Below, piece by piece: positions 38,733 to 59,588 of a stretch of DNA of 64,000 nucleotides; positions within the stretch are counted from its first letter, which is position 1; every line of letters starts with the position of its first letter. The notes beneath the pieces were generated by a model. That model made no database searches. It was not told where the DNA came from and worked only from the letters and a program-made list of their open reading frames with translations. The position numbers and the translations under genes were made by a program. This stretch comes from Gemmata palustris (lineage in GTDB: Bacteria > Planctomycetota > Planctomycetia > Gemmatales > Gemmataceae). Location of the stretch: assembly GCF_017939745.1 (NCBI RefSeq), contig NZ_JAGKQQ010000001.1:2170001-2234000 (forward strand), read 5' to 3'.

Positions 38733-39221
38733 TCAGGTCGCGGGCTTGACGTGCTGCCCAACCCAAGACACCAGCGCGTTCCGCACCCTGTCGGCTTCGG
38801 CGCGAACGTATGCCAGCCGAGAGTAGGCGTTCGGTTGGACCCTCGAGATGACGCAAACGGGCAGCTTGCGAGAACACAGCTCGTTCACCATGCCGTACTG
38901 CACGAGCGACTCCACAGCCTCCCGGTAATCCGGTTCGTCTTTCCAGAAACCCGTCTGCTCCCCGAGCCGGATGGCTGCGAACTCCAGCGCCAGCCCCTCG
39001 ATCCCGGTGATCTCGTACCTCGCCTGTAGACGTTGGCGGAGGGTGGCGCCCATCGTTTCCGAGAGATGCTGGGACAGCCGGCCGAGCGCCCCCGTCTGGC
39101 TGATGGTCTGCCCGACGTACAGAATCGTGGTGCCGTCGAAGGTGAGCAGAATCCCGTAGATGTACGGCGCTCGCGTCGCGACTGCCGCGTCGTGAACCGT
39201 CGCACGGAGCGCGGCAGGCAT
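38733..39221 (-). CDS. GIY-YIG nuclease-domain protein
   Basis: 162 residues from ATG 39221, which has GGGAGGG nine bases upstream. The nuclease core is YIYGILLTFDGTTILYVGQT: GIY-type YGI at 22-24 and YIG-type YVG at 35-37, followed by an Arg and His (R48, H52) and a later Glu (GLALEFAA), the expected catalytic set. The C-terminal half is helical with no added DNA-binding domain. It is the last gene of the operon, 35 bases after the GHKL ATPase, and so a candidate DNA-cleaving effector of the defence locus. Confidence 0.75.
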   Translation of the reverse strand: MPAALRATVHDAAVATRAPYIYGILLTFDGTTILYVGQTISQTGALGRLSQHLSETMGATLRQRLQARYEITGIEGLALEFAAIRLGEQTGFWKDEPDYREAVESLVQYGMVNELCSRKLPVCVISRVQPNAYSRLAYVRAEADRVRNALVSWVGQHVKPAT

Positions 39222-39256
39222 CGTTAACCCTCCCAACACAGCAATTCGTGGCCGTA

Positions 39257-40954
39257 TTACTTCCCGCCGAGGAACTCGCTGATGTCGAGCTGCCTCGTGA
39301 GATCCGAAAGCGCACCGCCGACACGCTCACGGAATTCGGCCATCACCTTCTCGATCACCTTCGGGTCCGAGTCCGACTTGTAGACCGTCCCGTACTCGCC
39401 CCTCGCCAGTGCGTAGAAGAGCACGTCGATCACCTTGAGCAGGTTGGCGTCCCCGTGGACAGCGGCGATCATGTCCCGGGCGAATCGGTGGGAGCTGTTC
39501 ACCCGCACGATCAACCCCGCTTCCGGGTCGTGGGCACGCTCCCATAGCTGGTTATTGTCGAGGCTATCCACCCACTGAACCCGCTGCTTCTGCTCCCGCA
39601 GCTTGGTCGATTCTTCCGGGGTCGTCGGCTTTTCACCGACGGCCTTCGTCCGCCGGGTCTTGAGCTTCTCGCGCTCGGCGGGTGGGGCGACACTCTCGTC
39701 AAGCTCGTCGCTTTTGTCCTCCAGTTTGGAAATCTTGTCCAGCTCCTCGTTCGCCTCATCGTGAGGCGTGCGGGAGAGAATCTTCTGGACGTTCGCGGTT
39801 GCGTTCTTCCATGCGGCCCGGCTCTTCTTCACCGCTTCGCCGATCAACGGCTTGAGCTGGTCCTCGGCGGTTTCGGACAGGTGGATGCGGCTCTTGGTTA
39901 CGTCGATGTTGAGCAGGTCATCGGCTTGGCTGTTGATCAAGAACCGGCCGCGGAAGGCGTAGAGGTCCTGGTCTTGTGGGACGTAGCCGAGGCTGGCCGC
40001 CCAGGAAATCAACCGGTGGTTCCGGTAGATGTAGAATCCGTAGTTGCCGGCACCGATCATGTACCTGTCGCGGCAGGCGGCCTGCGTCATCGTGCCTACC
40101 CTGCCTACACTCGGCGGATGGGGAAGCTGGGTGATCGTCACGACGGCGGAGATGGCTCCCTTCTTGTCGAGCTGAATGCTTTGTTCTCGCTGGATGAAGT
40201 TCGGCTGTAGCCCAGCCCAGGTGTTCTCGTTCAAGTCACCTGCGTCCCCGTCGGCGATCTCGCTGGTGAACAGCGGATCGAACGGCTTTACTTCATCCCC
40301 GTTAACGGTGATGGCCAGCTTCTCGGCGTGCGGAACCTGCCCCTGAAGGTAGTAGTGGTAGATGACCCCGGCCCTCTGCTTCAGCTCTTCGATGATTTCC
40401 GAAGCACGCGGCAGAGAATCGAGCAGCGGCTCCGTAATGCGGATCACCGTCCCCGAGCCTTTTGAGGCTACCGATTCGAGCAGTGCGATGTCCTCGTCGG
40501 ACGGCGCGACCAGCTCGTAGAAGTAGTCTGAGGTAATCTTTGAGCAGTCCAGAACGGCCTTGAACGCCTTCGACGGGTCGGCCTTGGGGCGGGTGATGAT
40601 TTCCAGGCAGCGGCCGAGGGACGCGGCGGCCGACTTCAGGCCGAGGCCGAACTTGGAGAGCGTGTACTCGTGGTACGCCTGCGGCGACGAGCCGAGGGAG
40701 AGGGCGTTGTCGATCCCGGCCTCGTCCATGCCGGTGCCGTTGTCGACGATCGTGAACGCCTTAAGTACCGCCTTCGGCCGGCCAGCCGCCCCCTGCTGGT
40801 TCTCCGTATCGACCTTGATCGCGATACTCGTCGCTTGAGCCGAGACGGAGTTGTCCCCGATGTCCAGCAACGCTGACACGGGGTTGTAGCCGATGTGCCC
40901 GAAGGCGCTCAACAGGCGGCCGGGGTTCACCGGCGGGCGGCGGATGTCGGGCAT
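39257..40954 (-). CDS. GHKL (Hsp90/MutL/histidine-kinase-fold) ATPase
   Basis: 565 residues. The Bergerat ATP site is clear at the N-terminus: N-box ALLDIGDNSVSA (D31, D34, N35), G1 box DNGTGMD (71-77) and G2 box KFGLGLKSAAASLG (101-114). A transducer-like middle domain follows, with the EDQLKPLIGEAVKKSRAAWK region, a charged coiled-coil segment rich in Glu and Lys (about 415-460) and a helical C-terminus. The architecture is that of MORC-like GHKL proteins in bacterial defence loci, not of a histidine kinase (no H-box). AAGGA lies eight bases upstream of the ATG, and the gene follows the BrxL-kinase gene by 36 bases. Confidence 0.8.
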   Translation of the reverse strand: MPDIRRPPVNPGRLLSAFGHIGYNPVSALLDIGDNSVSAQATSIAIKVDTENQQGAAGRPKAVLKAFTIVDNGTGMDEAGIDNALSLGSSPQAYHEYTLSKFGLGLKSAAASLGRCLEIITRPKADPSKAFKAVLDCSKITSDYFYELVAPSDEDIALLESVASKGSGTVIRITEPLLDSLPRASEIIEELKQRAGVIYHYYLQGQVPHAEKLAITVNGDEVKPFDPLFTSEIADGDAGDLNENTWAGLQPNFIQREQSIQLDKKGAISAVVTITQLPHPPSVGRVGTMTQAACRDRYMIGAGNYGFYIYRNHRLISWAASLGYVPQDQDLYAFRGRFLINSQADDLLNIDVTKSRIHLSETAEDQLKPLIGEAVKKSRAAWKNATANVQKILSRTPHDEANEELDKISKLEDKSDELDESVAPPAEREKLKTRRTKAVGEKPTTPEESTKLREQKQRVQWVDSLDNNQLWERAHDPEAGLIVRVNSSHRFARDMIAAVHGDANLLKVIDVLFYALARGEYGTVYKSDSDPKVIEKVMAEFRERVGGALSDLTRQLDISEFLGGK

Positions 40955-40990: not shown

Positions 40991-43213
40991 TCACACCGTC
41001 AGCGCCGCGACCTGCGTGCGAAGCCCCTGCGCTTCCGGCCGTTCGTCCGGGCTGACCGAGAGGCACGGCTTGATGACCGCCCACCACTGCGGGTCGAGCC
41101 GGGAGTAGTCCTCGATCTTCACCGATCCGGAGAGCAGGAAGGCCATCACACGGCCCATGGCGTAGATGTCCGCGGACGGGTGTGCGACCGCCCCGTCCCG
41201 CTGCTCGGGTGGTGCCCACGGCATCGAGTGGGCTCCCTGCATGGTGAACCCGGTGACCGGGCTGCTTACGAGCTTGCTAATGCCGAAGTCCGCGATTTTC
41301 CAGATATCGTCGCACCGGAGGATGTTCTCCGGCTTGATGTCCCGGTGGACGATGTCGTTCTCGTGGAGGGCGCACAGTCCGTCGAGGATGGCGAGCACAA
41401 TCGGTTTCACGGTGGCCGCGTCCATCGCCTTGCGAGGCGCGTCGGGGGCGGTGCCTTCCGTCAGCTCCCAGAGGGTGCCGCCGTCGGCGTACTCGGTCAC
41501 GAGGGCGTACCGCCCGCTTTCGCGGAAGATGTCCCGCACGGCCAGCAGGTGTGGGTTGGGAATCTGCTTCAGCCGCTCGTAGATGTCCATCTCCCGGCGG
41601 ATGGCACGCTCGTCGTCCGGCTTGCCGTTCGCGGTGGCCATCTTGACCGCCACCACGGTGCCAGTCCGGGTATCGACGCCCTTGTAAACGCGAGCGAACC
41701 CGCCCCGCCCGACTTCTTCGAGCAGGTCATAGTGGGCCAGTCGGTCGACGACTTGGGCGGCGGGGGCGTTGCTGCCGAGCCGGGTGCTGAGAAGTTCGGG
41801 GACGTACCCGTGCGGGTCGAGTTCGTGGAGCTGGCTCCTGACGTTCCGCCGCATCTCCTCGGCGGGGCGGACGACCAACTCTTCAAAGCGTGGGTCATCC
41901 GGGCCGATGAGCAGTAGCTTCGCCAGCCCGCAGGCGAGACGCTCGATGGCGGTGCAGTCACGCTTGCCGCCGGACAGCCGCAGCCGCGCCCGGACGGTCT
42001 GGGCGATGTCGGAAGCGGAGCGCAGCGCGTGGCACACCTCGGCGAAGTAGTCGGCCTTGAGGCCGTACCCCTGGGCCTGCTGCGTGGTCTCGAAAGGCGG
42101 GATCTTCCACCCGGGGATAATGCCGTGGAACCGATCGACCAGCGGGGATTCCAGCAGGATGTCGGGCAGCCGCCGGATGTAGTCTTTTCGCCGGGGGAGG
42201 TATGACGGTTTGCCGTTTCGGTAGCGGCCGGCGGGCGACGTCTGGATGTCGATGTTGGCGAGCAGCATCAGGCCGCACTCGGCGGTGGCGGCGCAGTCCC
42301 CTCGGGCGTACACGCCTTGTTCGAGATACCCCTTGAGCTGGGCCTGAATCTCGCCGGGGTTCGAGAACTGGAGCGATTGCGCCTCGTCCAGCACGAGCAG
42401 GTCGTACCGCGTCAGAAGGCCGGGGGTATGGCTCTGCCGGTTGTAGAACAGCACCGGGGCGCTGATCTGGGCGGCGGTCAGCCAGACGTGGCGGCTGATG
42501 TTGTTGTAAACGAACGATTTTCCGGAGCCGGGCGGGGCCAGCTCCATCATGTTCACGCGATTCTGGACAATCGGGATGAGACGGCACAGAAGCCAGAGCT
42601 TCTCCTCCTCGCTGTACTCCGCCGGCTCGTAGCCCATCGTGCGGACGAGCAGGTCGATCCACTCCTCCACGGTGAACGCTCGGCGGCAGTCGCGGAAGGC
42701 GTCGAGGGAGATGCGGCCGATCTGCATCGGCTTGAACTCGATGACCCGCACTCCGCCCTGGTCGCTGGAGTCGTCGTGGCAGATTTTCGCCGCTCCCCAG
42801 ATGTTGCTCTGGAGCAGCCCCTCGTTCTGCCGCAGCAGCGCGGCGTCGATCTTCGCCTTCTTCTCGTCGATGCACGGGATCGTCGCCAGGTACTCGGGCG
42901 TCTTACCGAGCTTCACTTCCACGGAGAGGGCGTCGAGGATGGTCAGGGTTTCGTTCTGACTCAGCCGAAACTTGATGGTCTCCTTCTCCCCCTTCGAGGG
43001 AAGGTGCTTCTTGATGAAGTCCACTACCGCGTCGCGCAGGCGGCCGGTGTTCGTGCCCACCTTGCTCGCGGCGAACGTGACGACCCAATCCATCACGTAG
43101 GACGGGATGTGCCGGTCGTCGCGCGACAGCCCGAGCCGGGTGATGAGGCCCTTGTCGATGGCGAATTCTTTGAACGTATCCTGGATCTTCTGGTCCAGTG
43201 CGGCGGTGCTCAT
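40991..43213 (-). CDS. brxL: BrxL-type AAA+ protein fused to a Ser/Thr protein kinase
   Basis: 740 residues from ATG 43213 (GAGGAA upstream). Residues 1-200 match the BrxL N-terminal region (LDQKIQDTFKEFAIDKGLIT, YVMDWVVTFAASK). An AAA+ module follows with Walker A LAPPGSGKSFVYNNIS (226-233) and Walker B DLLVLDEAQSL (D276, E277). From about 495 the chain is a complete Hanks-type kinase: Gly loop EVGRGGFARVYKG, VAVKMA (K524), HRDIKPENIL (623-632), DFG (642-644) and WAPPEQRDG. BrxL proteins normally end in a Lon-like protease/unfoldase-associated domain, and the kinase occupies that position here. No transmembrane segment. It lies 11 bases after pglZ. Confidence 0.85.
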   Translation of the reverse strand: MSTAALDQKIQDTFKEFAIDKGLITRLGLSRDDRHIPSYVMDWVVTFAASKVGTNTGRLRDAVVDFIKKHLPSKGEKETIKFRLSQNETLTILDALSVEVKLGKTPEYLATIPCIDEKKAKIDAALLRQNEGLLQSNIWGAAKICHDDSSDQGGVRVIEFKPMQIGRISLDAFRDCRRAFTVEEWIDLLVRTMGYEPAEYSEEEKLWLLCRLIPIVQNRVNMMELAPPGSGKSFVYNNISRHVWLTAAQISAPVLFYNRQSHTPGLLTRYDLLVLDEAQSLQFSNPGEIQAQLKGYLEQGVYARGDCAATAECGLMLLANIDIQTSPAGRYRNGKPSYLPRRKDYIRRLPDILLESPLVDRFHGIIPGWKIPPFETTQQAQGYGLKADYFAEVCHALRSASDIAQTVRARLRLSGGKRDCTAIERLACGLAKLLLIGPDDPRFEELVVRPAEEMRRNVRSQLHELDPHGYVPELLSTRLGSNAPAAQVVDRLAHYDLLEEVGRGGFARVYKGVDTRTGTVVAVKMATANGKPDDERAIRREMDIYERLKQIPNPHLLAVRDIFRESGRYALVTEYADGGTLWELTEGTAPDAPRKAMDAATVKPIVLAILDGLCALHENDIVHRDIKPENILRCDDIWKIADFGISKLVSSPVTGFTMQGAHSMPWAPPEQRDGAVAHPSADIYAMGRVMAFLLSGSVKIEDYSRLDPQWWAVIKPCLSVSPDERPEAQGLRTQVAALTV

Positions 43214-43224
43214 CGGGGGGTTCC

Positions 43225-45582
43225 TCAAAACATATCTTCGAAGGCCGCCTGGTCCTGGGTGCGCTCGACGAACTGCCGCGCGCGGGCGACCTGCATGTGG
43301 CGAATCACGTCGGGGGCTGGGGAGTCACCGCTCCGCGGACTCAGTGTAACCTCGAACACAAGTTCTTGGGCGGTCGGTAGGTCGGCGCCCGGCACCTCGA
43401 ACGCAAGCGTGTGGGTCGTACCGGGCCGCAGCGGCGGGTACGACACGGACACGCCCGCGCCTTCTCCCACCGGCGTCACCCGGATGCGTCCGCCGCTGGT
43501 CGGCACCGGCTGGTTGTTCGCCAGCAGCAGGTTGAAGATCCACCGCCCCTGGTCCCTTACGGCCCCGTCCGGCACGGAAAGCTCGGGGAACGGCAGCGCC
43601 TGCTGGTCGCCGAACCACTCCACCACCGGGACGATGACCTCCTCTGGCAGCAGTCCGCCGTGGGAAAGCCACCAGCCGGACATGGTGCCGTGGCCGCTGG
43701 ACCGCCCCCGCGCCACGAGGTAGCTGCCCCGCAGGTGGAACACCTTCCGGTCTAGGAAGGTGAGCGACTCGTCCCGTAACTCCGCGTCGTCGGGCTTGCG
43801 GTCGCCCAGTTCGACGCAGCGGTGGAGGCCGTCGGTGGCCTCGCCGTCCTTCTCCGGCTTCGGGCCGAAGGTGAACCCGTGGTCCCCGGTGAGCATCACG
43901 AGCGGCGACGCGCTGTGCCAGTGCTTGAACACCTCGACCCACTGCTGGACCAGCCGGGCGAGAGAGGCGACGATGGGGGTGAAGCTCTCCCTCAGTGCGT
44001 GGTAGTTGGTGTAGGTGCTGAGTTGCTCGTCCAGCCGGTTATCACGGTGGACCAGGAGCCGCACCGACCGGGTAACCCGGACGCGCTCCGCGTCCTGCCA
44101 GTGCGCGGCGAGCTGGAGCTGGTCAGGGGTCAGCCCGTACCGCTTCAGGAGCGTTTGTTGAAGGTTCCCGTGGCACTGCTCTGGGTACATGCCGCCGAGG
44201 ATGGCCTCCTTGCACACGGCGGTGATGGTCGGCACCGGGCAGAACGAGTATCGCACCTGCGTCGGTGACGCTCCAAGCGCCTTACCGAACTCCGCCAGCG
44301 CGGCCTCGATGACGTGAATGGCGAGAGCGTCCACCAAGATGAGGATGACCGGCCTGCCCGCCTGAAGCGTCTTCTGAACGGTGCCCGCGACGGTCAGGTA
44401 CCCGCGCTCCGGGTGGTTGAAGAAGACGGTCGGGTTGGCCTTCACCCACTTCGCGAACGGCGCGGCCGGGTCTTCCCCCTCCGGCGGCAGCGTGCGGCGG
44501 TAGAACATCCGCTCGATGTACGAGCCGTAGGTGTTCACCCACTGGTCGAACGACTCGTCCAGGTCGGTCCATCGGGCGACGGGAGCGGGCGGGGCGAACA
44601 GCCGGACGAGCCGCTGCGCCGTCTCACTGGCGGCGTACCCCGGAAGTCCGGCCAGGTGCCTACCGGCGGCCTCCGTCATGCCGCGGGGGTTTACCTGGAG
44701 CCAGCGGTCAAGTTCGGCGTCCACCCCGTCCCACAGAGCATCCAGGTTGGCGACGGCCCGCTCGAACGTATCGGGCCGTTCGATCTGCGCGCTTCGGACG
44801 GCCCGGCACATCAGTCGGGATATTTCACCGTGCATCGGGTCCGGCAGGGGGAACGGCAGCGTCAGGTAGCCCGCCCTCGCCAAATCCTGTGGGGACTCAC
44901 TGGGCAATCCCGGCACCGTGAGGGGGCGATCTATCGCCGGCCGTGTCAGCGGGAGCAGCGCCCGTCGCCGAAGCAGTCGGTTCGCGAATGTTACGGGAGA
45001 TGCGCTTTCCCGCAGGTGTTCGGCCAGGTCTGCCACCACATCCGGCATGGGGATGGTCGAGGCCGCGAGGAGACGAACCTGTTCGCTCAACCAATCCGTT
45101 AAAGGCGCAAGCCCCAGCGGCTCGGAAACATCGGTGGCGGACGCCGCACGGACGAGCCACTCTTGGAAGGACGAGGCGTCCGTGATGCCGGGCAGCACCC
45201 ATTCGGCAACTGTTGCCGCCCAGTTCGCCTGCACCATCGCGCCGGGGCCGGGCCGCTGAAGGAGTTTGCAGCCCACGATGGCGTCGTCCGTCAGCCAGTC
45301 CGGCGGCTCGGCGCCGACCGCGGCCTTTATCTGCCGGCGGGGTGTAAACTCGCGGAGGCGGACGCCCGAAAGGCCCCGCACGCTTCGGAAGTGCTCCCAG
45401 CCGATGCGGTCGAGTATGTAGGTGCGGGGGCGGCGTGTGCCGGGGTCGCCCGGCTGCCGGAGCGTCTCGCCGATCGCGTGGAAGGCGGCGATTTCCTGCG
45501 AGAGGCTGGCGACGCGCTGCCCCTCGCCCGCGTAGATGCGGTGCGGGTCGTACACCAAGTCAATCGGGCTGACATCATTCAT
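43225..45582 (-). CDS. pglZ: PglZ, alkaline-phosphatase-superfamily BREX protein
   Basis: 785 residues. The PglZ catalytic region shows VILILVDALAIHVIEAALAEFG (metal-binding Asp, about residue 414), FCPVPTITAVCKEAILGG (Thr nucleophile position) and MLTGDHGFTFGP (about 569) with the second metal-ligand set. N- and C-terminal extensions are typical of BREX PglZ; the C-terminal part (from about 690) is beta-rich. PglZ is the universal marker of BREX systems and has metal-dependent phosphodiesterase/nuclease activity in studied cases. It follows the BrxC-like ATPase gene by 21 bases. Confidence 0.88.
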   Translation of the reverse strand: MNDVSPIDLVYDPHRIYAGEGQRVASLSQEIAAFHAIGETLRQPGDPGTRRPRTYILDRIGWEHFRSVRGLSGVRLREFTPRRQIKAAVGAEPPDWLTDDAIVGCKLLQRPGPGAMVQANWAATVAEWVLPGITDASSFQEWLVRAASATDVSEPLGLAPLTDWLSEQVRLLAASTIPMPDVVADLAEHLRESASPVTFANRLLRRRALLPLTRPAIDRPLTVPGLPSESPQDLARAGYLTLPFPLPDPMHGEISRLMCRAVRSAQIERPDTFERAVANLDALWDGVDAELDRWLQVNPRGMTEAAGRHLAGLPGYAASETAQRLVRLFAPPAPVARWTDLDESFDQWVNTYGSYIERMFYRRTLPPEGEDPAAPFAKWVKANPTVFFNHPERGYLTVAGTVQKTLQAGRPVILILVDALAIHVIEAALAEFGKALGASPTQVRYSFCPVPTITAVCKEAILGGMYPEQCHGNLQQTLLKRYGLTPDQLQLAAHWQDAERVRVTRSVRLLVHRDNRLDEQLSTYTNYHALRESFTPIVASLARLVQQWVEVFKHWHSASPLVMLTGDHGFTFGPKPEKDGEATDGLHRCVELGDRKPDDAELRDESLTFLDRKVFHLRGSYLVARGRSSGHGTMSGWWLSHGGLLPEEVIVPVVEWFGDQQALPFPELSVPDGAVRDQGRWIFNLLLANNQPVPTSGGRIRVTPVGEGAGVSVSYPPLRPGTTHTLAFEVPGADLPTAQELVFEVTLSPRSGDSPAPDVIRHMQVARARQFVERTQDQAAFEDMF

Positions 45583-48600: not shown

Positions 48601-49392
48601 CAGCCCGAACTCGTCCCAGATGACCAGGATGCCCTCGTACCCGTGGCGCTGCACACGCTCTGCAACCAGCGGGTAGATTTCGTGGGCCTCATAAGCCCCG
48701 CCGGACGCCCGGAGGTAGTCGTAGAAATCGACCACCGTCTCGCGCATGTGCCAGTCGCAGAACTCCTGAAGCGCGTGCTCGTCGAAGTCCTGCCGAAGCG
48801 CCCGCGCCATCTGTTCCGCAGTCGCCAGCCGGGAGTTCGGTGCGGGCTGGTACACCTTCCCCTTGCTGACGAGGTTGTCGAGCCGAGTGGCCGCCTCGTG
48901 GAAAACGGTCTTCCCGAGCACCTCCTCGCTCAGGCCCGCGCGGCGGAGCGCCTTGAGCAGTCCCCGGACGAACGCGGTGGAGAGCCGCCCGCCGCCGCCG
49001 TCGGCGTACAAGGGAACGACCAGCCACGGCCGCCACGCCTTCCCGCTCGGCACCATCGCCTGCTTCAGCGAGTCGAGGGAGGTTCCCTGCTGCCGCGCCC
49101 GCAGCCGGCCCCAGACCGGCAGGAGCGCCGGGCAGTCGAACCCGTCCTGGAACAGTCGCGCCAGTACGGTGCAAAGGCGGCTCTTGCCCGTGCCGTAGGT
49201 GCCGTGGCAAATCACGGCCCGGCCGCGGGGGCTGTGCGGGCCAACCGCCTCTCGCAGGAAGTCGAACACTTCGAGGGTTGAGCGGACGGGCACATACCCG
49301 GAGGCGACCTGGTCAACCTCCAGGGACTCCTCGAAGTTGACGTAGGGCTTCTCGTCCTGCGAGACGAAGACCCACTCGCTCAGGTGACTCAT
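45604..49392 (-). CDS. brxC: BrxC/PglY-like giant P-loop ATPase (second copy in operon)
   Basis: 1262 residues. Walker A is GTYGTGKS (64-71) and Walker B is ILVIWDEFGLALE (D260, E261), followed by a MAFTHMSLTEYG sensor-like segment. The remaining 900 residues are mostly helical, ending in a DGGRREFPEFTHDEALVQVRQAL region. Size and position before pglZ fit BrxC. It is visibly paralogous to the 1168-residue ATPase at 51600: same Walker spacing, and a shared middle block (PPYGMPNGIMPLFVALVF here, PPFGLKDGVLPVLLAAVL there). It overlaps the small upstream gene by four bases. Confidence 0.82.
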   Translation of the reverse strand: MSHLSEWVFVSQDEKPYVNFEESLEVDQVASGYVPVRSTLEVFDFLREAVGPHSPRGRAVICHGTYGTGKSRLCTVLARLFQDGFDCPALLPVWGRLRARQQGTSLDSLKQAMVPSGKAWRPWLVVPLYADGGGGRLSTAFVRGLLKALRRAGLSEEVLGKTVFHEAATRLDNLVSKGKVYQPAPNSRLATAEQMARALRQDFDEHALQEFCDWHMRETVVDFYDYLRASGGAYEAHEIYPLVAERVQRHGYEGILVIWDEFGLALESLLKGAQNGKRDMHLEAIGLQDFVERACGSNDLGKRVVFMAFTHMSLTEYGQRSNLSETDRNRLETVAARFRQPSIFIKLSVTEMEGYHLLAGMLHRTKAGEAVFQNPVPRLQQIATRMPRQRFWQNISAEAAYQDVVAPCYPLHPATSSSLLLLSDRIAQVNRTAFYYLQSREEGGVAGALETRVLPPVDEAGGGELLRISDLLPFFSEPLRQKEPHLVGQYEQAVARLPGATPMEAAILRAVLVLAGIKSADMAPTTVFLSFCLCDAEREEIGATALHEALSRLKEAHALWKNEATDVWNFVTDRGLGQDLEKEIDGEKALVPADKTTGELLRTYESLRVEVTDRLGEMELDPNDAGIVRRVAVRLLDPAKGEKAIDAQNPALAGGDSPAWLSAVIYLAAADTAAQLDACRKLAETPIKGEAYMILPSAPMSLSSEKARELIAVKQLLEKKDSQSHAFEVLENKLTKLREELRTEFARTFGNEGLRSGTGVLKVGQTPRTVPVSSWGQLLPSIARDLDTTYHHQPRVRCGSYNEWLSYSGGAWKKIEYIVEAILKFDEQPEYQTDYLNFNDTSQEGAVIDGVLCENGFFSHNSASGKWELAVPTSETPSEPMRETLKYLASRSTSDKPFIKLFERLVEPPYGMPNGIMPLFVALVFRSEPSRIGIYRKKYNNWERVETKIAEAIVDMARFPDRYQTRYSKLSPKQRWVFRVIGAELEVKVPEGGAADRIEEACEKVSAQLRDIVHKLPEAALTLRDLSEPEKDILKVLRGGVPPQPTLLADHLMRWIQEDAEARQELEDAGSTRPTFPATVRLWRDLRERLGRQVEGARAPVRRQLQNVGNDRDGVVESLRKVEAFAGPENRVISSIMERLAASDGKGELIEEVVAAVANKEARQLSQEDYGRASGILEVIQSLAPSKGKMTVIMPDGGRREFPEFTHDEALVQVRQALRGWRDTFALDPDQLAALLLTVVFAKCEPEAHSTAVRHEASVAPE

Positions 49393-49877
49393 GAGTATGT
49401 CTCTTCCGTAGCGACGAGGCGCGGCCTAAGAAACCGGATGTCCGTGCCGGGGATGACGCCGCGCGCCACGAATGGCCCTTCGACCCCTTCCGTCCGGGGA
49501 ATGTCCACCACAACGATGCCCGGCCCACGGGAATACAGCGACAGGAAGTTCCAGAACCCTTCCTGCACCCCCGGCGTCCAATAGTCCACGAAATGCAGCG
49601 GCCCGGCCAGCACCACGGCGTCGGTTTTCCCCGCCTCGTTGATGCACGCCCTGGCAGAGTCGGCGGCCATAGCGCCCACCTGGTCGAAGAACCCTTCCCA
49701 CGGGAGCACGCGGGACGCTCTACCGGCGTCAGCCAGCGCGGACGGAAGGTATTCGCACAGGCGCGACAGCACGTCGAGCCGGTCGGCTTGGAGGATGAGG
49801 CAACGGTAGCGACGAGTCGGGTTCAGCTCCGCAGACACGAGCCGGGCGACCTGATCGCGGAGCGGTGTTACTGCCAT
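49389..49877 (-). CDS. Small unknown protein of the BREX-like operon
   Basis: 162 residues, coupled on both sides (10-base overlap with the gene before, four-base with the ATPase after). It has an alternating alpha/beta pattern: YRCLILQADRLDVLSRLCEY, AVVLAGPLHFVDYWTPGVQE, FWNFLSLYSRGPGIVVVDIPRT and PGTDIRFLRPRLVATEE. This looks like a P-loop-type Rossmannoid that has lost its Walker A. A BrxF-like or RecA-like non-catalytic partner of the giant ATPase is possible; I cannot name the family. Confidence 0.65.
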   Translation of the reverse strand: MAVTPLRDQVARLVSAELNPTRRYRCLILQADRLDVLSRLCEYLPSALADAGRASRVLPWEGFFDQVGAMAADSARACINEAGKTDAVVLAGPLHFVDYWTPGVQEGFWNFLSLYSRGPGIVVVDIPRTEGVEGPFVARGVIPGTDIRFLRPRLVATEETYS

Positions 49878-50731
49878 TTGACCGCATGGCTCCGGTAGCC
49901 GGTTAGCCGGAGATCGCGCAGGGTCGCTTCGGCGGGGCGTAGGAATTGGATGGAGTCCTGATTCACCTGCTGGCGGTACTGCACGAACTGCCCGTAATCC
50001 TTATGTGTGGTGATGCGGGACAGTGACTCCCGCACGTCCGATTCTCGCAGGCCCAACACCCGCGCGAACCCTTTCCCGAGGATCTCCCGGGCTTCGACCG
50101 TGGCTTGGTTCGGGTAGTGCTGGCGCTGGAACAGCACGGCTGCGTAGGCGACGAGCAGGTCTTCGGCCTTCGTGAGGCGGCGGCGGACCTTGCGGCCGCC
50201 TCGCCCGTCTCCGACCGTCCGCTCCTCCAGCAGCCCAAGTTCGTTCACGAAGCCGCCCGTTTGGAAGGTCTGCGCGACCCCACTGAAGTAGGAGCTCACG
50301 GTCTCTTTCGAGATGCCGATTTGCTTCTCCTCGGCGCTCTGCGCGAGGCAATCGGTGATATCATCAAGAGAGACCCAACGCCCCTCGGTGTCGTAGATGT
50401 GGAAAAACCCCGTGTACGGGAAGGCGTCGGGGTTCGTGCACAGGTGCAGGTGAAACAGCCACCACGTCCAGGCCATCTCTGCACGGGCGTCCTGGGCGGC
50501 CATGAGCTGCCCCAGCTCCGTCAGCGTCGTGTTGCTGCCCTTCGACTCGGTGACCCCGCCCGCCTTAAGCCAGTTCTTTATGGCGGTGAGCTGGTTGCTC
50601 CCCGCGAGGAATGACTTCCGGGCGGTGGACATCTTCTTGGCCGCGAACAGGTCGGGCTGGCGAGGCAGCTCCCTAAACGCCGCGACCAGCCAGTGCCGCG
50701 TGAATCCAAAACTGTCGTTCTTCAGCGGCAT
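49868..50731 (-). CDS. DUF4007-like protein, second divergent copy
   Basis: 287 residues. By eye it runs parallel to the DUF4007 protein at 55103: GSNQLTAIKNWLKAGGV against GKNMVRSIRHWCLAAGV, LTELGQLMAAQD against PSQFGDALLSDD, then a WTWWLFHLHLCTN block against LWLIHWQIATN, and a matching tryptophan/phenylalanine-rich centre. It therefore looks like a second, diverged DUF4007 member. DUF4007 proteins accompany PAPS-reductase/phosphorothioation genes; activity unknown. It follows the PAPS reductase gene by 15 bases. Confidence 0.7.
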   Translation of the reverse strand: MPLKNDSFGFTRHWLVAAFRELPRQPDLFAAKKMSTARKSFLAGSNQLTAIKNWLKAGGVTESKGSNTTLTELGQLMAAQDARAEMAWTWWLFHLHLCTNPDAFPYTGFFHIYDTEGRWVSLDDITDCLAQSAEEKQIGISKETVSSYFSGVAQTFQTGGFVNELGLLEERTVGDGRGGRKVRRRLTKAEDLLVAYAAVLFQRQHYPNQATVEAREILGKGFARVLGLRESDVRESLSRITTHKDYGQFVQYRQQVNQDSIQFLRPAEATLRDLRLTGYRSHAVKWQ

Positions 50732-50746: not shown

Positions 50747-51550
50747 TCAGGTGTGGCACATGAAGCATGGCGGCTCGTCACTCTCGTCCTCCAGCACCTC
50801 GTCCAGCACGTCAAGCAGCGGCAGGTTGACTCGCTTTTTCTGCTGGCCCTCCATCGCCTTCTGGTGCCGCGCCTTAATTTCCCGAACGCGCTCCGGGGCG
50901 GACAGTTCCTCCAGCGACTCCCGCTGGTTCCAAGTGTAACGCTCGCCGGTCTCCTCGTTGATTTTCTCGTACTGCTTGGACAGTTCGAACAGTTCGGGGT
51001 GCTTTTCCAGCAGCCCAACCCACTCCATCCGCCGCTGGAAGAAGCAGAAGTAACACCCGGATCTCGTTCGCCAGGAATAGTAATCGGGCAGCCCAACGCC
51101 GCTCTCATCGAGGATGCGGCGGACGTCTTCGGCTACGATACCCTCCTCGACGAACGGCAGGACCGTCACAATGTTCGGCCGCGTGGAGACGTAGGCCGTC
51201 CGATCTTCGTCGGCCCTGATTCCTACATACATCTGAACCTGATCGTTGCCCACGTACTTTTCAAAAGGCTTCATCTTCAGGACGTGGGTGCACCATCGCA
51301 TCCGGGAGGACGGGAGGTATCCACCCTTGACCTTGAGCCAGTGATCGAACCCGCGGTCGTCCCGCAGCCGGGTAATCCTGATTCCGAGTGCGTACTCGAT
51401 CTTCGACAGGTATTCGTAAGTTTCCGGCAATTCCTTGTCGGTGTCGCAGAAGACGTACTCCATCCCCGGCACGCGACCGCGCATGTGGATGGCGAGGGCG
51501 GTGCTGTCCTTCCCTCCGGAGAGCATCAGGATGTGGCGAGGCGTCGTCAT
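50747..51550 (-). CDS. PAPS-reductase/DndC-like sulfurtransferase (BrxP-type)
   Basis: 267 residues. The PP-loop ATP pyrophosphatase motif SGGKDSTALAIH is at 11-22, and a LPETYEYLSKIE segment follows. Cysteines C87 (RMRWCTHVLKMK), C166/C169 (SGCYFCFFQRR) and C262/C265 (CFMC) could hold an iron-sulfur cluster, as in DndC. DndC is about twice as long, so this is the short form. It would activate and transfer sulfur, plausibly to the DNA backbone (phosphorothioation). No DndD, DndE or cysteine desulfurase gene lies nearby, so a host desulfurase would have to supply sulfur. In type 4 BREX the PAPS-reductase protein is called BrxP. Confidence 0.82.
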   Translation of the reverse strand: MTTPRHILMLSGGKDSTALAIHMRGRVPGMEYVFCDTDKELPETYEYLSKIEYALGIRITRLRDDRGFDHWLKVKGGYLPSSRMRWCTHVLKMKPFEKYVGNDQVQMYVGIRADEDRTAYVSTRPNIVTVLPFVEEGIVAEDVRRILDESGVGLPDYYSWRTRSGCYFCFFQRRMEWVGLLEKHPELFELSKQYEKINEETGERYTWNQRESLEELSAPERVREIKARHQKAMEGQQKKRVNLPLLDVLDEVLEDESDEPPCFMCHT

Positions 51551-51599: not shown

Positions 51600-54500
51600 T
51601 CATCCGGCACGCTCTGCTTCGTCCATGAGCTGCCGGACCAGTTCGGCCAGGATGGCCACGCTCACGTCCTTCCGGTCCAGCACCTTTTCATCACGCAGCA
51701 CCCGACGGACTTCCTCACGCACGCGGTTCGCCTGCGGGGACATTTCAGGCGGCACCTGCACCACCTTCTCCACCCCTCCGCGCTCGGGGACGGTGATGCT
51801 GACCAGCAGCATAGATTTGTCGCCGTCCAGCAGGGCGTAGCCGGTGCGCTCCATCTCCAGGGCCAGCACTCGGTAGTGCTCGAAGTTCCGGGCGGCTGCC
51901 GCGAGCTGCACCTCGAAACGGGCACGGTCCTGGTCGTCCCAGTGTGCCGGGGGCTTGCCCGCCAGCAAAGTGGAAATGGACTCCAGCCAGGTAGGGTCAT
52001 CCACCCCGTCGTCCGTCACCCGCAGCAGGAACGCCTTGAGCTTGGCCTCCACCGCCACGTTCAGTACCAACCGGGCATGGTGGTCGATGCGCTTGCGGGC
52101 GGCGGGCAGCGGAGCTGTCTCCCCGAAAGCCCTGAGCGTTAGCGACTCGATGGTGGCGAGGAGGTTGGGGTATGCCCGCTGCAACTCGGTGAACGCCGCC
52201 CGGAGCTGCGCGAAGTAGGCGTCAATCTGCTTCTGGTCAGCTTTACCCGACGCTTCAAAAGGCGGGTGCCCGCACGCCGCGGGTAGATCGACGAACAGGA
52301 GCTTGTCCGGCTGCCGTGCCTCACGCACCGCCTTCAATACCTTCTGGGCGGTGTCGCTGATCTGCCTCGTTTTGGTTACGAAGTCGGGAAGCTCCCTGGC
52401 CAGCCGGACCATGGGCTTGACGATGGTCAGCAGGTCGCCTTCGTCTCCAGCCGCCCGCTGAATCATAGCCGCGTAGTGCTGGAACACCTCGGCGCGCGGC
52501 CCAGCGATACGGAACCGCTGCAATTCGTATTTCGCAGGCGTGCGGAAGAGCCGCTCGAAGACGGCTGCGTTCGGCTTTGGGACGAATGACCCCTCCTCGT
52601 ACAGCGCCACCTGCGAGTGAGCGTGGACCAGCACGGCAGCGAGGAGGACCGGCAACACTCCGTCCTTCAGGCCAAAGGGCGGCTGCCGCAGCGTGGCGAA
52701 TAATTGCTCGACGGACCTCTTTCCGCTCTCGGTCTCGGCAAGGAAACTCTCAATCGCCTTCCACACCTCGCGGACTGCAGGGTCGGCCTGCTTGTCGGGC
52801 GGGGCGAAGCCCATCTCGCCGCCCTGCTTGCGGTGTAGCCGCGACCCTTTCAGCAGCGTTTCGTACATGCTGCGTTCGGGCGGGGTTCCCTTGAAGCCGA
52901 GCGCCTCCTGCTCCGGGTGCTCGAACATCGCCTCAATGAGGTTCCGCCTGGCGGCCGCGGCCGACGAAGACAGGGAGCGACGGTTGATCAACTCGTTCCG
53001 CCAGTGCGGGGTGGCGTGGTAGACCTCGTCGCAGGCACGAGAGAGCGCGTCATTGAGCTGGCGGGCGGTCGCCAGCTTCACTTCGACGCCCCGGCAGAAC
53101 CAGACACAGCCGGGATTAGCCGGGGAAAACACCCACTCCAGGTGCGACCGCAGGTTCTGCTCGGCGATGGCGAGGCGGGCACTCAGTTCCCGCCGGGCCG
53201 TCCGGTCGGCCTCCAATTCGGGGGTGTGCTCGGCGACCCACCGCAGGCATACCAATTCGTGGCACAGTTCCCGCAGGTCGAATACGTCACCTGGAAGCGC
53301 GGCGACAACCGGCACGTCACCGCCGGCCGCCGTGATCTGCTCCCGAAGCGCCTTCCGGTCACTCGGGTCTCGCGGCAGGCAGTAGAGTACCCGCCCGTCG
53401 GCATCCCCCGCGCCGCCCAGCACGCCGCTGAACAGGTCGCCCTGTAGGTCGGACCGACCGCAATAGACCGCTTCGAAGTAGCGGAGCGTGCCGGTCTGGA
53501 AGTAGTGGCGCCGGGCGATGAGCGATTGCGGCGGGAGCTGGCGTGACAGGAACACGGCAAGGCTCTGGTCACGTTCCACCGACTGCCGGGCGGCTTGCAG
53601 CCGGTCCTCGATATCAACGTCGCTGCCTTCCCATAGGGCATAGCTGCCGGTGTGGCGGCGAAACACCACCACCGACTGCCTTGCCAGGTCTTTCAGCGCC
53701 GCTTCGACCTCGCCTTCACCCGCCACGCCGCGGAGGGCAGCCACAAGCACAGTGCTCGATGCCGGGAACCCCGCAGCCGGGCCAAGGGCCTGGAGAAGCC
53801 CGATGGTCTTGGCGAGCCGGACCTGCACGTCGCTGGCGTCGTGGAGCCGGTCGAGGGCGGTTTGGACTTCGGCCCACAGCTTGCCCCGGTGCTGCGCGAA
53901 CACGCCCGGCCCGAGGGAGGCCATAACGTAGTCGTAGAGGCAATCGAGCCGGTACGCCCCGCCCTTGACGGTGCCCTGGCTGAGGAACTCGCGGAACCCG
54001 TGAGCCTCCGAGGAGGCGAGGAAGGCGAACAGCGACCGCTCGTTCTGCGCGAGTTGGCGGAACAGCGGGCCGAGCACCACCGCGGTGAGCGGGTGCAGTG
54101 GGTAACAGGCTGCGAGGCAGTCCTCAAGCTCGCCCGCCGGCATGGCGGCCGCCCGAATCCCGGCTGTTACCGCTTCCTGCGCCAGCCCCTTCGCCTGTTT
54201 GCGGAGGGGCTTGAGGTCGGTGTCCGACCCTTCGTGCTGGATGGCGTGGCTAAGCAGCCGGAGGAGCTGTTCGCTCCGTTCCTCGAAGGCCACGTCGTCG
54301 AACCGCCCCTGCACCTTCGCCCACTCGGCACGGCGGCCGGGGCTGAGGTGGTCGGCGTAGCGGTCCAGCGACTGGTGCAGGATAGTGACGAACAGGAACG
54401 GGCGGGCCGAGCGCGTTGCCGCCTCCGCCAGCTCCTGCAGGACGAACACGTCCCCCTGCTCGGGGTTACTGGCCCCGAACTCCAGGAACTTACCGAGTTC

Positions 54501-55106
54501 ATCAACGATCAGCAGCAGCCCGGACGCCTCGCCTTCCACCCGCGAAAGGTACTCGACGGCCTCTTCAAACATCCCGGCCACGGCGCTCCCGGCGGGGGCC
54601 GGTGCAGCGGCCAGCCGTTCCAGCCGTTCGATGATCTGGGGCGGACGCCCGCGGGTGGCGACGGCACGGAGCGAGGCGGCAAGACTTGTCGCCAGTGCCT
54701 TGTCGAGGGGCTGCCGCGAACCCGTCACCAGCACCGGCAGGAGGCGGCCGGTCTTCTTGGCCAGCGCGCTCCCCGCGCCGAACAACCTGGCTGTCAGGTC
54801 AGGGTCCACCGCCGTCAGGAATCGGCGGGCCTGCTGGCGTACCCCGTCTTCACCCGACAGGAGCTGCGCGATGAGCAGGGCGAGCGAGGACTTGCCGGAC
54901 CCGTAAGGGCCGGTCAGCGACCAGGCGCGGGTCGTCGTCTCCCCGTGCAGCGTGGCGGCCATCCGCCGGAGCATGTCACGCCCGTTGGGGGTCAGGATGT
55001 AGCCGTCGAGGGCGTCCTTCCGGCCGGTGTCCCGTGTGATGGAAACGGATCGGGCGAAACGCGGATTGACCGTGACGAGGGTGTCGAGAGAGGGGTGCTC
55101 GCTCAT
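51600..55106 (-). CDS. Giant P-loop ATPase, BrxC-like (first copy in operon)
   Basis: 1168 residues. Walker A is GPYGSGKSS (66-74); Walker B is LLLIVDELGKFLEF (D202, E203), followed by a FVTILHQSLDRYAD sensor-like block. The rest is helical with a conserved PPFGLKDGVLPVLLAAVLVH block shared with its paralogue at 45604. The start ATG 55106 overlaps the DUF4007 stop by four bases and has GGAGGGAGG upstream. It forms a coupled DUF4007/ATPase pair. An ATP-driven DNA- or complex-remodelling role is inferred from the family. Confidence 0.8.
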   Translation of the reverse strand: MSEHPSLDTLVTVNPRFARSVSITRDTGRKDALDGYILTPNGRDMLRRMAATLHGETTTRAWSLTGPYGSGKSSLALLIAQLLSGEDGVRQQARRFLTAVDPDLTARLFGAGSALAKKTGRLLPVLVTGSRQPLDKALATSLAASLRAVATRGRPPQIIERLERLAAAPAPAGSAVAGMFEEAVEYLSRVEGEASGLLLIVDELGKFLEFGASNPEQGDVFVLQELAEAATRSARPFLFVTILHQSLDRYADHLSPGRRAEWAKVQGRFDDVAFEERSEQLLRLLSHAIQHEGSDTDLKPLRKQAKGLAQEAVTAGIRAAAMPAGELEDCLAACYPLHPLTAVVLGPLFRQLAQNERSLFAFLASSEAHGFREFLSQGTVKGGAYRLDCLYDYVMASLGPGVFAQHRGKLWAEVQTALDRLHDASDVQVRLAKTIGLLQALGPAAGFPASSTVLVAALRGVAGEGEVEAALKDLARQSVVVFRRHTGSYALWEGSDVDIEDRLQAARQSVERDQSLAVFLSRQLPPQSLIARRHYFQTGTLRYFEAVYCGRSDLQGDLFSGVLGGAGDADGRVLYCLPRDPSDRKALREQITAAGGDVPVVAALPGDVFDLRELCHELVCLRWVAEHTPELEADRTARRELSARLAIAEQNLRSHLEWVFSPANPGCVWFCRGVEVKLATARQLNDALSRACDEVYHATPHWRNELINRRSLSSSAAAARRNLIEAMFEHPEQEALGFKGTPPERSMYETLLKGSRLHRKQGGEMGFAPPDKQADPAVREVWKAIESFLAETESGKRSVEQLFATLRQPPFGLKDGVLPVLLAAVLVHAHSQVALYEEGSFVPKPNAAVFERLFRTPAKYELQRFRIAGPRAEVFQHYAAMIQRAAGDEGDLLTIVKPMVRLARELPDFVTKTRQISDTAQKVLKAVREARQPDKLLFVDLPAACGHPPFEASGKADQKQIDAYFAQLRAAFTELQRAYPNLLATIESLTLRAFGETAPLPAARKRIDHHARLVLNVAVEAKLKAFLLRVTDDGVDDPTWLESISTLLAGKPPAHWDDQDRARFEVQLAAAARNFEHYRVLALEMERTGYALLDGDKSMLLVSITVPERGGVEKVVQVPPEMSPQANRVREEVRRVLRDEKVLDRKDVSVAILAELVRQLMDEAERAG

Positions 55107-56011
55107 GTCCTCCCTCCGATGGCGAAAGCTCTCGCAAGCGCATCCTGTGCGTCCATCTTTTCCCGCCGGTATAACTGCCGCAGCCCCGCCGTCTCACCGA
55201 AGGAAAGCGCCCCCCCGGTCAGGCGCTCGACCCCTTCGAGCCGTTCGACCAGCGACGACTCGTCGATCTTGAACACCCGGCCGGGGCTGGCGGGATGGCG
55301 GGCGATGTCGGCAATGGCCAATGTCCCGGCCTGCGGAGCGGTGGCTTCCCAGAACGCGAGCGTCGCGTACAGCAGCACCCCGTCGGGGAGAGACTGCTGG
55401 CGGCCCCGCCGGAACTGGAACGTTTGGCCGCCTCCGGGCTGCACGATGAGTCCGAGGTCAACCAGCGGGCAGTCGAGTGAGTCCTCGGCCAGGTCGCCCC
55501 GGCCCTGCCGCGACGGCGCGTAGGTGCGGAGGAACACCTCGACATCCCGCTTGACGGAGCTTTCGGCGACCTGCTTGCCAGACAAGGTCTGCGTCCAGCG
55601 GAACAATGCCGAGGTCAGTGCCTCGCGTGTGAACTCCGGCTCGTGGAAGTGGCTGAACGCCCAGAACCAGGTCGTGCTGCGGTAGCGGTTGGTGGCGATC
55701 TGCCAGTGGATCAGCCAGAGGCTCGCCGGGTCTTCGAGGTACGGGTCTAACCCGTCGTCGGAAAGCAGGGCATCCCCGAACTGCGAGGGGCGCAGGCCGT
55801 CGCGCTCGGAGTCCACCAACACCCCGGCGGCCAGGCACCAATGCCGGATGGATCGTACCATATTCTTTCCGACGCCGAGGGTGGTGATCGCGTCGTCGCG
55901 CACGAACACGCCCGCGTCGCCCCGAACGGCGTCAAAGCCCTTCTTGAGCCACGGGTAGCGGAAGGGGAACGTTTCGTGCCCCGAGAACTGGTACTGCGTC
56001 GCTAATCCCAT
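55103..56011 (-). CDS. DUF4007 family protein, first copy
   Basis: 302 residues from ATG 56011; upstream in-frame sequence lacks protein character. The DUF4007 signature is at the very start: YQFSGHETFPFRYPWLKKGF followed by LGVGKNMVRSIRHWCLAAGV. First gene of the operon. DUF4007 proteins are repeatedly found with PAPS reductase and phosphorothioation genes and are thought to take part in DNA recognition or restriction. Confidence 0.88.
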   Translation of the reverse strand: MGLATQYQFSGHETFPFRYPWLKKGFDAVRGDAGVFVRDDAITTLGVGKNMVRSIRHWCLAAGVLVDSERDGLRPSQFGDALLSDDGLDPYLEDPASLWLIHWQIATNRYRSTTWFWAFSHFHEPEFTREALTSALFRWTQTLSGKQVAESSVKRDVEVFLRTYAPSRQGRGDLAEDSLDCPLVDLGLIVQPGGGQTFQFRRGRQQSLPDGVLLYATLAFWEATAPQAGTLAIADIARHPASPGRVFKIDESSLVERLEGVERLTGGALSFGETAGLRQLYRREKMDAQDALARAFAIGGRT

Positions 56012-56209
56012 CCGTGGTTCGACTCCGCAAGGAACCGCAAGCTGCCGACACGGCACACCCTGCGTAAATTGTATCCGACGGGTCTTGACAGTCATCGGGA
56101 CTGTAGCTAGTCAGCCTAGTTTTACAATCTCGGCAGTGACGCAAGGCGCGGTCCTTCCGTTTCTTCGGCCACGAGCCACCCCCCAATCACCCCTGATTCG
56201 GGAATCCCT

Positions 56210-57691
56210 ATGCTGCCGGGTCCGATCCAGCGTCACAAAACGGCCATCCGGCGCGGGGACTTCTCCCGGCCGGTAAAGTGTTTGCTCCGTGACGGTCTTG
56301 TGGCCGCAGGGGTTACTTTCTTCGACTACGGCTGCGGAAGGGGTGAAGACCTCGAACTGCTCGCGGGCGACGGCGTTCCGTGCTCCGGCTGGGACCCGGC
56401 GCACCGTCCGGACGGTGCAAGAGCAGAAGCCGATGTGGTGAACCTCGGCTACGTCCTGAACGTGATCGAGGACACGCGGGAACGGGCCGAAACGCTGCGG
56501 GCGGCGTGGGGGTTGTGCCGGAAGGTACTGGCGGTGTCCGCGCAGGTACTGGTGGCCGGGCGGGGTAAGAATCCGGTGGAGTTCGGCGACGGTGTGCTGA
56601 CGAGCCGGAACACGTTCCAAAAGTTCTTCGAGCAGAGTGAGCTGAAGGCGTACCTCGAAGCCGAGTTGGGGACGGAAGCCATCCCGGCGGGCATCGGCAC
56701 GTTCTACCTGTTCCGCGACGAGGAGAGGCGGCAGGCGTTCCTCGCCAACCGGTACCGCAGGCGGGAGATCGTTCCACGCCGCCGCATCGCGGAACTGCGG
56801 ACGGAGGAGATCCGGCAGGCGCTCGAACCGTTCATGGAGGTCATCGCCGGGCTGGGCCGGGTGCCCGACACGGACGAGTTCCCCGGAGCGGCGGCGCTGG
56901 TCGAGCGGTTCGGTTCGTTGAAGCGGGCGTTCGCGGCCGTGCAGCGGCTCACCGGAACGGAAGCGTGGGACGACATTGCCCGCCGCCGCCGGGAGGACAT
57001 CCTGGTGTACCTCGCCCTCTCGCGGTTCCGCAAGCGCCCTGCGATTTCCCTCCTGCCCCTCACGCTGCAGCGGGACATGAAGGCCTTCTTCGGGGCGTAC
57101 ACGAAGGCGTGCGCCGAAGCCGACGCGTTACTGTTCAAAGCGGGCGACGCGGCGGCCATTGACGAGGCGTGCAAGCGGGCCACGGTCGGCAAGCTGCTTC
57201 CGGACGACCTGTACGTCCATCAATCAGCGATCGATTCGCTGGAGCCGCTACTTCGAATCTACGAGGGCTGCGGCCGAGCATACCTCGGCGAGGTAGAGGG
57301 CGCGAACCTCATCAAGATTCACCGCCGAACTGGGAAACTGTCGTACCTGATATATCCAGAGTTCGAGTCCGACCCGCACCCGGCGCTGCTGCGCTGCGTG
57401 AAGCTGAACCTGCGAACCAGGCAGATCGAGTGCTACGACTACGCGGAAAGCTCGAATCCGCCGGTGCTGCACCGGAAAGAAACATTCCTGCATCCTGACC
57501 ACAAGCTGAGGGCGAAGTTCGCCAAGCTGACCGAGCAGGAGGAGAAGCAAGGGCTGCTGGAGGACGCATCCGGCATCGGAACGCGGGACGGGTGGGCGAG
57601 GCGCCTGACAGAGAAAGGGTTCGCGCTAAAGGGGCACAAGCTGGTGAAGTCCCGCCCCGATGCTACTGTGGGCAGACCTGAGGCGGATTGA
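56210..57691 (+). CDS. DNA phosphorothioation-associated putative methyltransferase
   Basis: 493 residues. Class I SAM-binding motif I is FFDYGCGRGEDLELL (37-51), and NLGYVLNVIEDTRERAE is the motif IV-like segment. The N-terminal QRHKTAIRRGDFSRPVKCLL and the RYRRREIVPRR region fit the dnd-associated methyltransferase family (TIGR04096). Divergent from the big operon, with a 198-base shared promoter region (56012-56209), so the two are probably co-regulated. It could methylate DNA at phosphorothioate sites or an RNA/protein partner; the target is not known. Confidence 0.82.
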   Translation: MLPGPIQRHKTAIRRGDFSRPVKCLLRDGLVAAGVTFFDYGCGRGEDLELLAGDGVPCSGWDPAHRPDGARAEADVVNLGYVLNVIEDTRERAETLRAAWGLCRKVLAVSAQVLVAGRGKNPVEFGDGVLTSRNTFQKFFEQSELKAYLEAELGTEAIPAGIGTFYLFRDEERRQAFLANRYRRREIVPRRRIAELRTEEIRQALEPFMEVIAGLGRVPDTDEFPGAAALVERFGSLKRAFAAVQRLTGTEAWDDIARRRREDILVYLALSRFRKRPAISLLPLTLQRDMKAFFGAYTKACAEADALLFKAGDAAAIDEACKRATVGKLLPDDLYVHQSAIDSLEPLLRIYEGCGRAYLGEVEGANLIKIHRRTGKLSYLIYPEFESDPHPALLRCVKLNLRTRQIECYDYAESSNPPVLHRKETFLHPDHKLRAKFAKLTEQEEKQGLLEDASGIGTRDGWARRLTEKGFALKGHKLVKSRPDATVGRPEAD

Positions 57692-59341: not shown

Positions 59342-59395
59342 TTCTCAACCGGGCGGGGGTTCTGGCCCCCGCCCATCTTCTTTAAGGGGCGCTCG

Positions 59396-59563: not shown

Positions 59564-59588
59564 CACTCTCAACATCAAGGACGACACT

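Follow-up and report, generated by a model that had tools for sequence, protein, structure and literature searches.

Within a stretch of 64,000 nucleotides of the Gemmata palustris genome (contig NZ_JAGKQQ010000001.1, positions 2,170,001 to 2,234,000; in the following, the window), a single gene joins the AAA+ protein BrxL of bacteriophage exclusion (BREX) systems to a Ser/Thr kinase. This is a real and conserved domain fusion, and judging from its sequence context it belongs to a phosphorothioate-linked, Type-4-like BREX. An earlier reading of this DNA (the sequence-only reading) regarded such a domain arrangement as unfamiliar for BrxL, and no description of a BrxL-kinase fusion was found in the literature searched, which excluded most subscription papers and supplementary tables. 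As the best explanation, to which we give a probability of roughly 45%, we propose that the fusion is the terminal subunit of this BREX and that the loading of the BrxL ring onto DNA would switch the kinase on.

The gene lies in an uninterrupted open reading frame (ORF) on the minus strand at 40991-43228, counted from an upstream TTG, with its stop at 40991. We prefer the ATG at 43213, as did the sequence-only reading, because the start codon of a relative (L062; loci carry L numbers throughout) is its equivalent, and because GAGGAA, a ribosome-binding-like stretch overlapping the pglZ stop, is found 8-13 nucleotides upstream. In the 745-residue numbering of the profile searches (minus 5 for ATG numbering), Pfam recognizes BrxL_N at 18-150 (2.1e-19), BrxL_ATPase at 161-476 (4.5e-84) and Pkinase at 500-705 (1.2e-38), all above cut-off. 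The protein matches the BrxL model TIGR02688 over its full length (model positions 1-449, 373.1 bits, cut-off 329.3) and stays below the cut-off of TIGR02653, the long Type-1 BrxL (203.9 against 628.25 bits). Two findings would have contradicted the sequence-only reading: an intact Lon-like domain, and an internal stop or assembly error between the halves. Neither appeared, as Pfam finds no Lon model up to an E-value of 0.01, the frame is open, and an assembly error is excluded by the in-frame kinases of other assemblies. When the fusion is aligned with the solved Type-1 BrxL 8emc, its residues 6-465 correspond to positions 9-458 of the 679-residue chain; the fused kinase thus starts where the Type-1 hinge and C-terminal domain start, and occupies the position of the latter. 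According to the accessible text of PMC10164562, it is through this domain, after the hinge linker (469-497), that Type-1 BrxL pairs its rings.

The same fusion is found in five other planctomycete genomes, although the copy in L065 ends with its contig, 34 residues into the kinase match. In the BrxL part, these proteins are 91% (L062, L063), 71% (L066) and 67% (L064, L065) identical to that of the window. Both halves, which the sequence-only reading had described as a BrxL with intact Walker motifs and a complete Hanks kinase, bear this out across all five complete fusions. In the AAA+ domain, Walker A (APPGSGKS), Walker B (VLDEAQ), N320 and R361 are invariant, the latter two of which we take to be the sensor-1 and arginine-finger positions. 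In the tail, the catalytic motifs of a Hanks-type Ser/Thr kinase (PF00069) are present, with K524, E541, HRD 623-625, K627, N630, DFG 642-644, PE 669-670, D682 and R725 invariant, as are the activation-loop threonines T654 and T657; in the Gly loop, the central GG is kept and the first glycine is variable (A in L066). Mean pairwise identity reaches 88.0% in the catalytic loop and 84.7% in the activation segment, against 59.2% in the rest of the kinase domain, and over the whole domain pairwise identity falls to as little as 49%. Conservation of the kinase is therefore concentrated where catalysis needs it. Furthermore, both halves are under strong constraint, with nonsynonymous divergence (dN) far below synonymous divergence (dS) wherever these could be computed: between the window and L062, dN is 0.055 and dS 1.00 for the BrxL part, and 0.077 and 1.41 for the kinase part, while between L064 and L065 dN/dS is 0.041 for the BrxL part. 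Synonymous sites are thus near saturation while the proteins stay conserved; between the window and L066, dS is saturated and gives no value.

To place the fusion among its relatives, we scanned one genome per species in 84,980 species and kept the best 80 of 559 BrxL relatives. Apart from the window, five of these 80 carry an in-frame kinase, 63 end within 34 residues after the match, 11 have a C-terminal extension of ~190-212 residues (PLD-like MIT_C in the two tested by Pfam), and one (L094) is cut by a contig end; as only the best 80 of 559 were considered, the scan may have passed over fusions that arose independently on more distant BrxLs. L062 and L063 lie on the same contigs as two matches of an order-level search, in which 20 of 45 matches were examined; at phylum level, 30 of 36 were retrieved. 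In 82 BrxL_ATPase loci retrieved from among the matches of four phylum samples (two of which share genomes: of the 40 matching in one, 27 were already present in the other), BrxL was recognized in 76, and a custom kinase profile found no kinase ORF within these loci, which extend only slightly past the match. Likewise, none of 935 matching plasmid records covers at least 80% of the query, and three of the 12 listed, which reach 74-78%, hold no kinase by profile; none of 39 matching phage records covers 80% of it, and 65 pattern stretches in viral contigs include no relative.

We then built a tree of the BrxL domain from 121 rows, namely 120 loci and the window, with midpoint rooting; six of 126 loci had been dropped because of a stop inside the match (L031) or insufficient length (L035, L036, L037, L038, L112). 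The six fusions form one clade with a support of 100 in the Shimodaira-Hasegawa-like approximate likelihood ratio test, sister (support 100) to 13 tail-less BrxLs, mostly named as gammaproteobacterial. All 29 rows labelled as Lon-type lie beyond a branch with support 100 from the fusions, and a single change of label suffices for the kinase, as it does for the HKD-like extension. The Lon and HKD-like labels derive from a scripted sequence pattern; Pfam, run on five of the 41 rows so labelled, finds Lon_C in L050 and L012 and MIT_C in L103 and L099, and in L022 nothing but a ChlI below threshold. Set against ten further kinases, of which seven come from the genome of the window, the five complete fused kinases also form one clade (100/99), which points to a single origin; within what was sampled, the trees thus have the kinase gained once.

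By this phylogeny, the window BrxL belongs to a short, Type-4-like branch in which a Lon-like C-terminus is not usual. The sequence-only reading had placed the kinase 'in place of' the usual C-terminal domain and had suggested an alignment with BrxL sequences to see whether the Lon-like domain is absent or displaced. Its 'in place of' is not supported: the Lon-like domain is absent, not displaced, in the branch of the fusion, and since its nearest unfused relatives are tail-less and the fusions nest among tail-less BrxLs, the kinase was added. Replacement of a Lon domain is rejected on the basis of the BrxL tree. An unfused ancestor in L071, a Methylococcaceae metagenome-assembled genome (MAG) with a separate 787-aa kinase gene directly after its tail-less BrxL (L071:7378-9738), is rejected as well, because its kinase groups apart from the fused ones.

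The fusion is encoded by the last gene of an operon of eight, in the order SspB, SspC, SspD, DUF4007, a protein of no known family, BrxC, PglZ and BrxL, all on the same strand and overlapping or at most ~50 bp apart (Table 1). SspB, SspC and SspD, the genes of Ssp phosphorothioation, stand together in the window, as do those expected of Type-4 BREX, i.e. BrxC, PglZ, BrxL, a PAPS reductase and DUF4007, with BrxC and PglZ assigned by weak profiles and synteny, their curated models staying below cut-off. In the PglZ-like protein, D418, D567, H568 and H641 do not vary among the 12 copies aligned, and the solved PglZ 9zn5 is recovered by a profile built from 12 sequences (1.9e-05). As far as the accessible text of a 2026 survey goes, Type-4 BrxL has no C-terminal extension, and Type-1 BrxL has Lon-like and HKD tails (PMC12839542); because of the kinase extension, we call the locus Type-4-like and not Type-4. 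The sequence-only reading had not noted this phosphorothioation-linked BREX context. No paper reporting SspBCD together with PglZ was found in the literature searched.

This operon order is common to the window, L059 and L142/L066, all with the fusion, and is also found with tail-less BrxLs in L143/L071 and L144/L076 (L144 with one extra ORF between SspC and SspD) and with the unfused BrxL of L145/L067, where SspB was undetected before SspC; in the genome of L063 it is divided over two contigs (L146). The TIGR04096 methyltransferase adjoins the operon or lies one gene off in the window, L059, L066, L067, L072 and L077, a homologue of the window gene stands beside it in L146 and L071, and SspD was found in 10 of 14 genomes searched. 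Inside L145 there is an NF045808 phosphorothioated-DNA-binding endonuclease. The Herpetosiphonaceae MAG L085 holds a different joint, a single 1435-aa frame (L085:3079-7383) of an SspC-like ATPase and a BrxL without its first residues.

What directly follows BrxL varies over the 13 loci of the tail-less sister clade: L069, L070, L076 and L078 have a GmrSD family member, L068 a PLD-helicase, L067 and L072 TIGR04096, and L071 its kinase; in L074, L075, L077 and L080 the next genes are others or lie on the opposite strand, and in L073 the contig ends. An accessory gene is therefore often located in the slot behind BrxL, which in the planctomycete clade is filled by a fused kinase. Outside the sister clade, a separate same-strand kinase-like ORF also lies downstream of a Lon-type BrxL in a genome of the same order (L052:2-664, 221 aa, truncated at the edge of the locus).

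How such a protein might work can be outlined from the structures of Type-1 BrxL and from what is generally known of kinases, on which ring assembly, proximity activation, the substrates and the role in phage defence proposed here are based. Type-1 BrxL forms its assembly on DNA when ATP is present, and its ATPase is stimulated by DNA (PMC10164562, accessible text). In the window system, SspBCD would place a phosphorothioate mark on self DNA, and where the BrxC-PglZ part judges DNA to be foreign, a BrxL ring would assemble. This would bring six or seven kinase domains together at the tail face of the ring, the face on which Type-1 BrxL carries its ring-pairing domain, where the crowded kinases could phosphorylate each other on the activation loop, at T654 and/or T657. 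Kinases of this class, once brought together, generally phosphorylate and so activate one another, and of the stretches measured in the fused kinase, the activation segment and the catalytic loop are the most conserved; proximity activation is accordingly our best-supported guess at the mechanism. Once active, the kinases would phosphorylate nearby proteins, those of their own complex first (BrxL neighbours, BrxC, PglZ), and DNA loading would thereby become the switch for the nuclease step. The coupling of phosphorylation to the DNA-translocating module, as put forward in the sequence-only reading, is a plausible proposal.

Several observations weigh against this explanation. The curated PglZ models are below cut-off (18 bits against 25 in Pfam, 16 against 140 for BREX_PglZ_4), and so is that of the second BrxC (22.3 against 400 bits). 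The fusion query has 116 matches in the host genome, one being the fusion itself and nearly all falling on the kinase part, so that kinase domains could easily be captured there. SspD was not found in the L064, L065, L068 and L085 genomes. L064 and L065 keep the fusion (in L065 as far as the contig reaches, with SspB and SspC on the same contig) though their PglZ consists of the last ~145-155 residues only, and neither the second BrxC nor another PglZ relative was found in searches of these metagenome-assembled, possibly incomplete genomes. This speaks against PglZ or BrxC as the essential substrate, and the fusion may work without a full PglZ. In both loci, an NF045808 endonuclease precedes the PglZ remnant (L064:219-1613, L065:1111-5930); between them, dN/dS is 0.22 for the remnant and 0.058 for the endonuclease. 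Judging from these genes, the locus seems to have exchanged a role in marking DNA with phosphorothioate for one in restricting DNA so marked. It is conceivable, if more tentative than the explanation above, that a BREX motor was turned into a signalling receptor, in which ring closure on foreign DNA activates the ring's own kinases and sends a phosphorylation signal, perhaps even without a full PglZ.

Where that signal would go is a matter on which regulation of the own complex and host-directed abortive action are close rivals. Under the latter, somewhat less likely still, the ring-activated kinase would phosphorylate host proteins of translation or replication and shut the infected cell down, like Stk2 of Staphylococcus (PMC11676413, accessible text). 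Kinase fusions of DndF have been proposed as suicidal co-effectors acting on proteins (PMC10853773, accessible text), and effector-like genes (GmrSD, PLD-helicase, the separate L071 kinase) stand just after the short BrxLs of the sister clade; the L071 kinase, however, is a separate gene outside the fused-kinase group, in one of 13 sister loci. The persistence of the fusion in L064 and L065 without a full PglZ or second BrxC favours abortive action somewhat. We consider it unlikely that the kinase is instead a brake or sensor, which would respond to a signal from the host or the infection and, by phosphorylating BrxL itself, allow or prevent the loading of the ring; BrxL would then be under the control of the kinase and not the reverse. 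The kinase stands in cis with BrxL and has the HRD catalytic loop as well as both activation-loop threonines, which are invariant, and in Type-1 BrxL a mutation of the C-terminal domain alters ATPase activity (PMC10164562, accessible text), but Pfam finds no sensor domain in the fusion beyond BrxL and kinase. It is more improbable again that the kinase fold serves as a mere scaffold, pairing rings as the Type-1 Lon-like domain does with catalysis incidental: its place in the topology would suit this, but its catalytic residues are invariant in five of five fusions of a domain that otherwise falls to 49% identity. Finally, chance fusion or an annotation or assembly artefact without function, however rich in kinase domains the host genome may be, is hardly credible given its conservation, with other assemblies, a single clade and dN far below dS.

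Compared with known systems, the window protein resembles the Type-4 BREX BrxL (TIGR02688) in its BrxL_N and MCM-like AAA+ domains, its place after brxC and pglZ and its phosphorothioation context, and differs in its kinase tail. With Type-1 BrxL it shares the point after the AAA+ domain at which an extra domain is joined, although this domain is a kinase and not Lon_C or MIT_C, and the two occupy different parts of the BrxL tree. Stand-alone defence kinases provide the best defence-library match of the kinase half (mad6, 7.8e-48), but a match of one Hanks kinase to another does not show shared function; MAD6, PD-T4-6 and Stk2 are not known to occur as BrxL fusions. PglW of Type-2 BREX is likewise a Ser/Thr kinase within a BREX operon, but it forms a large protein of its own, in which nuclease, pseudokinase and kinase domains are combined (PMC12839542, accessible text). 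Its model matches the fusion over the kinase part at only 20.2 bits (cut-off 990), and the link is one of analogy only. DndF with a fused S/T/Y kinase also joins a kinase to the P-loop subunit of a phosphorothioate-linked restriction system; unlike here, its kinases are N-terminal, typically a tandem inactive-active pair, and belong to a Dnd rather than an Ssp/BREX context (PMC10853773, accessible text).

The fusion bears on how BREX turns recognition into restriction and on the debated role of BrxL, as it ties BrxL to a well-understood enzyme with a measurable output, phosphorylation. We propose that the DNA loading of BrxL could be turned into a phosphorylation signal; if ring loading does activate the kinase, one could assay directly at what time and place BrxL engages DNA, and if the complex acts as a receptor, the loading of a DNA motor would be read out as protein phosphorylation in one branch of phosphorothioate BREX. 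From the comparison, BrxL also seems to offer a plug-in slot at its C-terminal position, which may hold a Lon-like domain, a PLD-type domain, a kinase or nothing.

Table 1. The fusion gene, its domains and the neighbouring genes, in window positions
Feature	Position	Strand	Basis and remarks
BrxL-kinase fusion gene	40991..43213	-	740 aa, ATG start; last conserved operon gene
BrxL N-terminal domain (PF20442)	42779..43177	-	Pfam 2.1e-19
BrxL AAA+ ATPase domain (PF13337)	41801..42748	-	Pfam; Walker A, Walker B, N320, R361 intact
Linker, residues 475-493 (ATG numbering)	41735..41791	-	Poorly conserved; mean pairwise identity 29.9%, 5 fusions
Hanks-type Ser/Thr kinase domain, residues 494-740	40994..41734	-	Pfam and motif alignment
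PglZ-like protein, 785 aa	43225..45582	-	D418, D567, H568, H641; curated models below cut-off
BrxC/SspC-like ATPase, second copy, 1262 aa	45604..49392	-	SspC 1.7e-54, BrxC 4.6e-12; synteny
162-aa protein, no family found	49389..49877	-	Fixed site between DUF4007 and BrxC
Second DUF4007/SspB-like protein	49868..50731	-	DUF4007 profile 2.9e-17
SspD (PAPS-reductase-like), DNA phosphorothioation	50747..51550	-	PADLOC SspD 3.3e-110
SspC	51600..55106	-	E 0, 1108.7 bits
SspB (DUF4007)	55103..56095	-	5.6e-100 and 1.3e-91 in two profile searches
DNA phosphorothioation-associated putative methyltransferase (TIGR04096)	56210..57691	+	591.5 bits, cut-off 150; divergent from sspB
GHKL ATPase, MzaB-like (below cut-off)	39257..40954	-	36 bp downstream of fusion

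Of the remaining genes, the 162-aa protein found no family match in profile-library searches, and relatives have an ORF of similar size at its position; a BrxB-like role is a guess. The GHKL ATPase downstream of the fusion was considered as a member of the system and rejected, as a different gene follows the fusion in L062 and L063. Having been unseen beside other fusions, it probably stands outside the system, although proteins of other families are found within ~2.5 kb downstream, near the equivalent place, i.e. a sacsin-domain protein in L062 and an opposite-strand HATPase in L063. A 168-aa ORF at 38733-39239 was suspected by eye to be a GIY-YIG protein, a reading we dropped for want of any Pfam or NCBIfam match. 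Near the defence locus, the window further encodes an RNA ligase with a PHA02142 OB-fold domain (34923-35984), and TerD and DUF475/TerC-family genes adjoin it (58757-60784). Elsewhere in the window, the ORF sets at 14367-15783 and 19510-20926 are identical in length and spacing in the ORF list, which suggests a duplicated mobile element.
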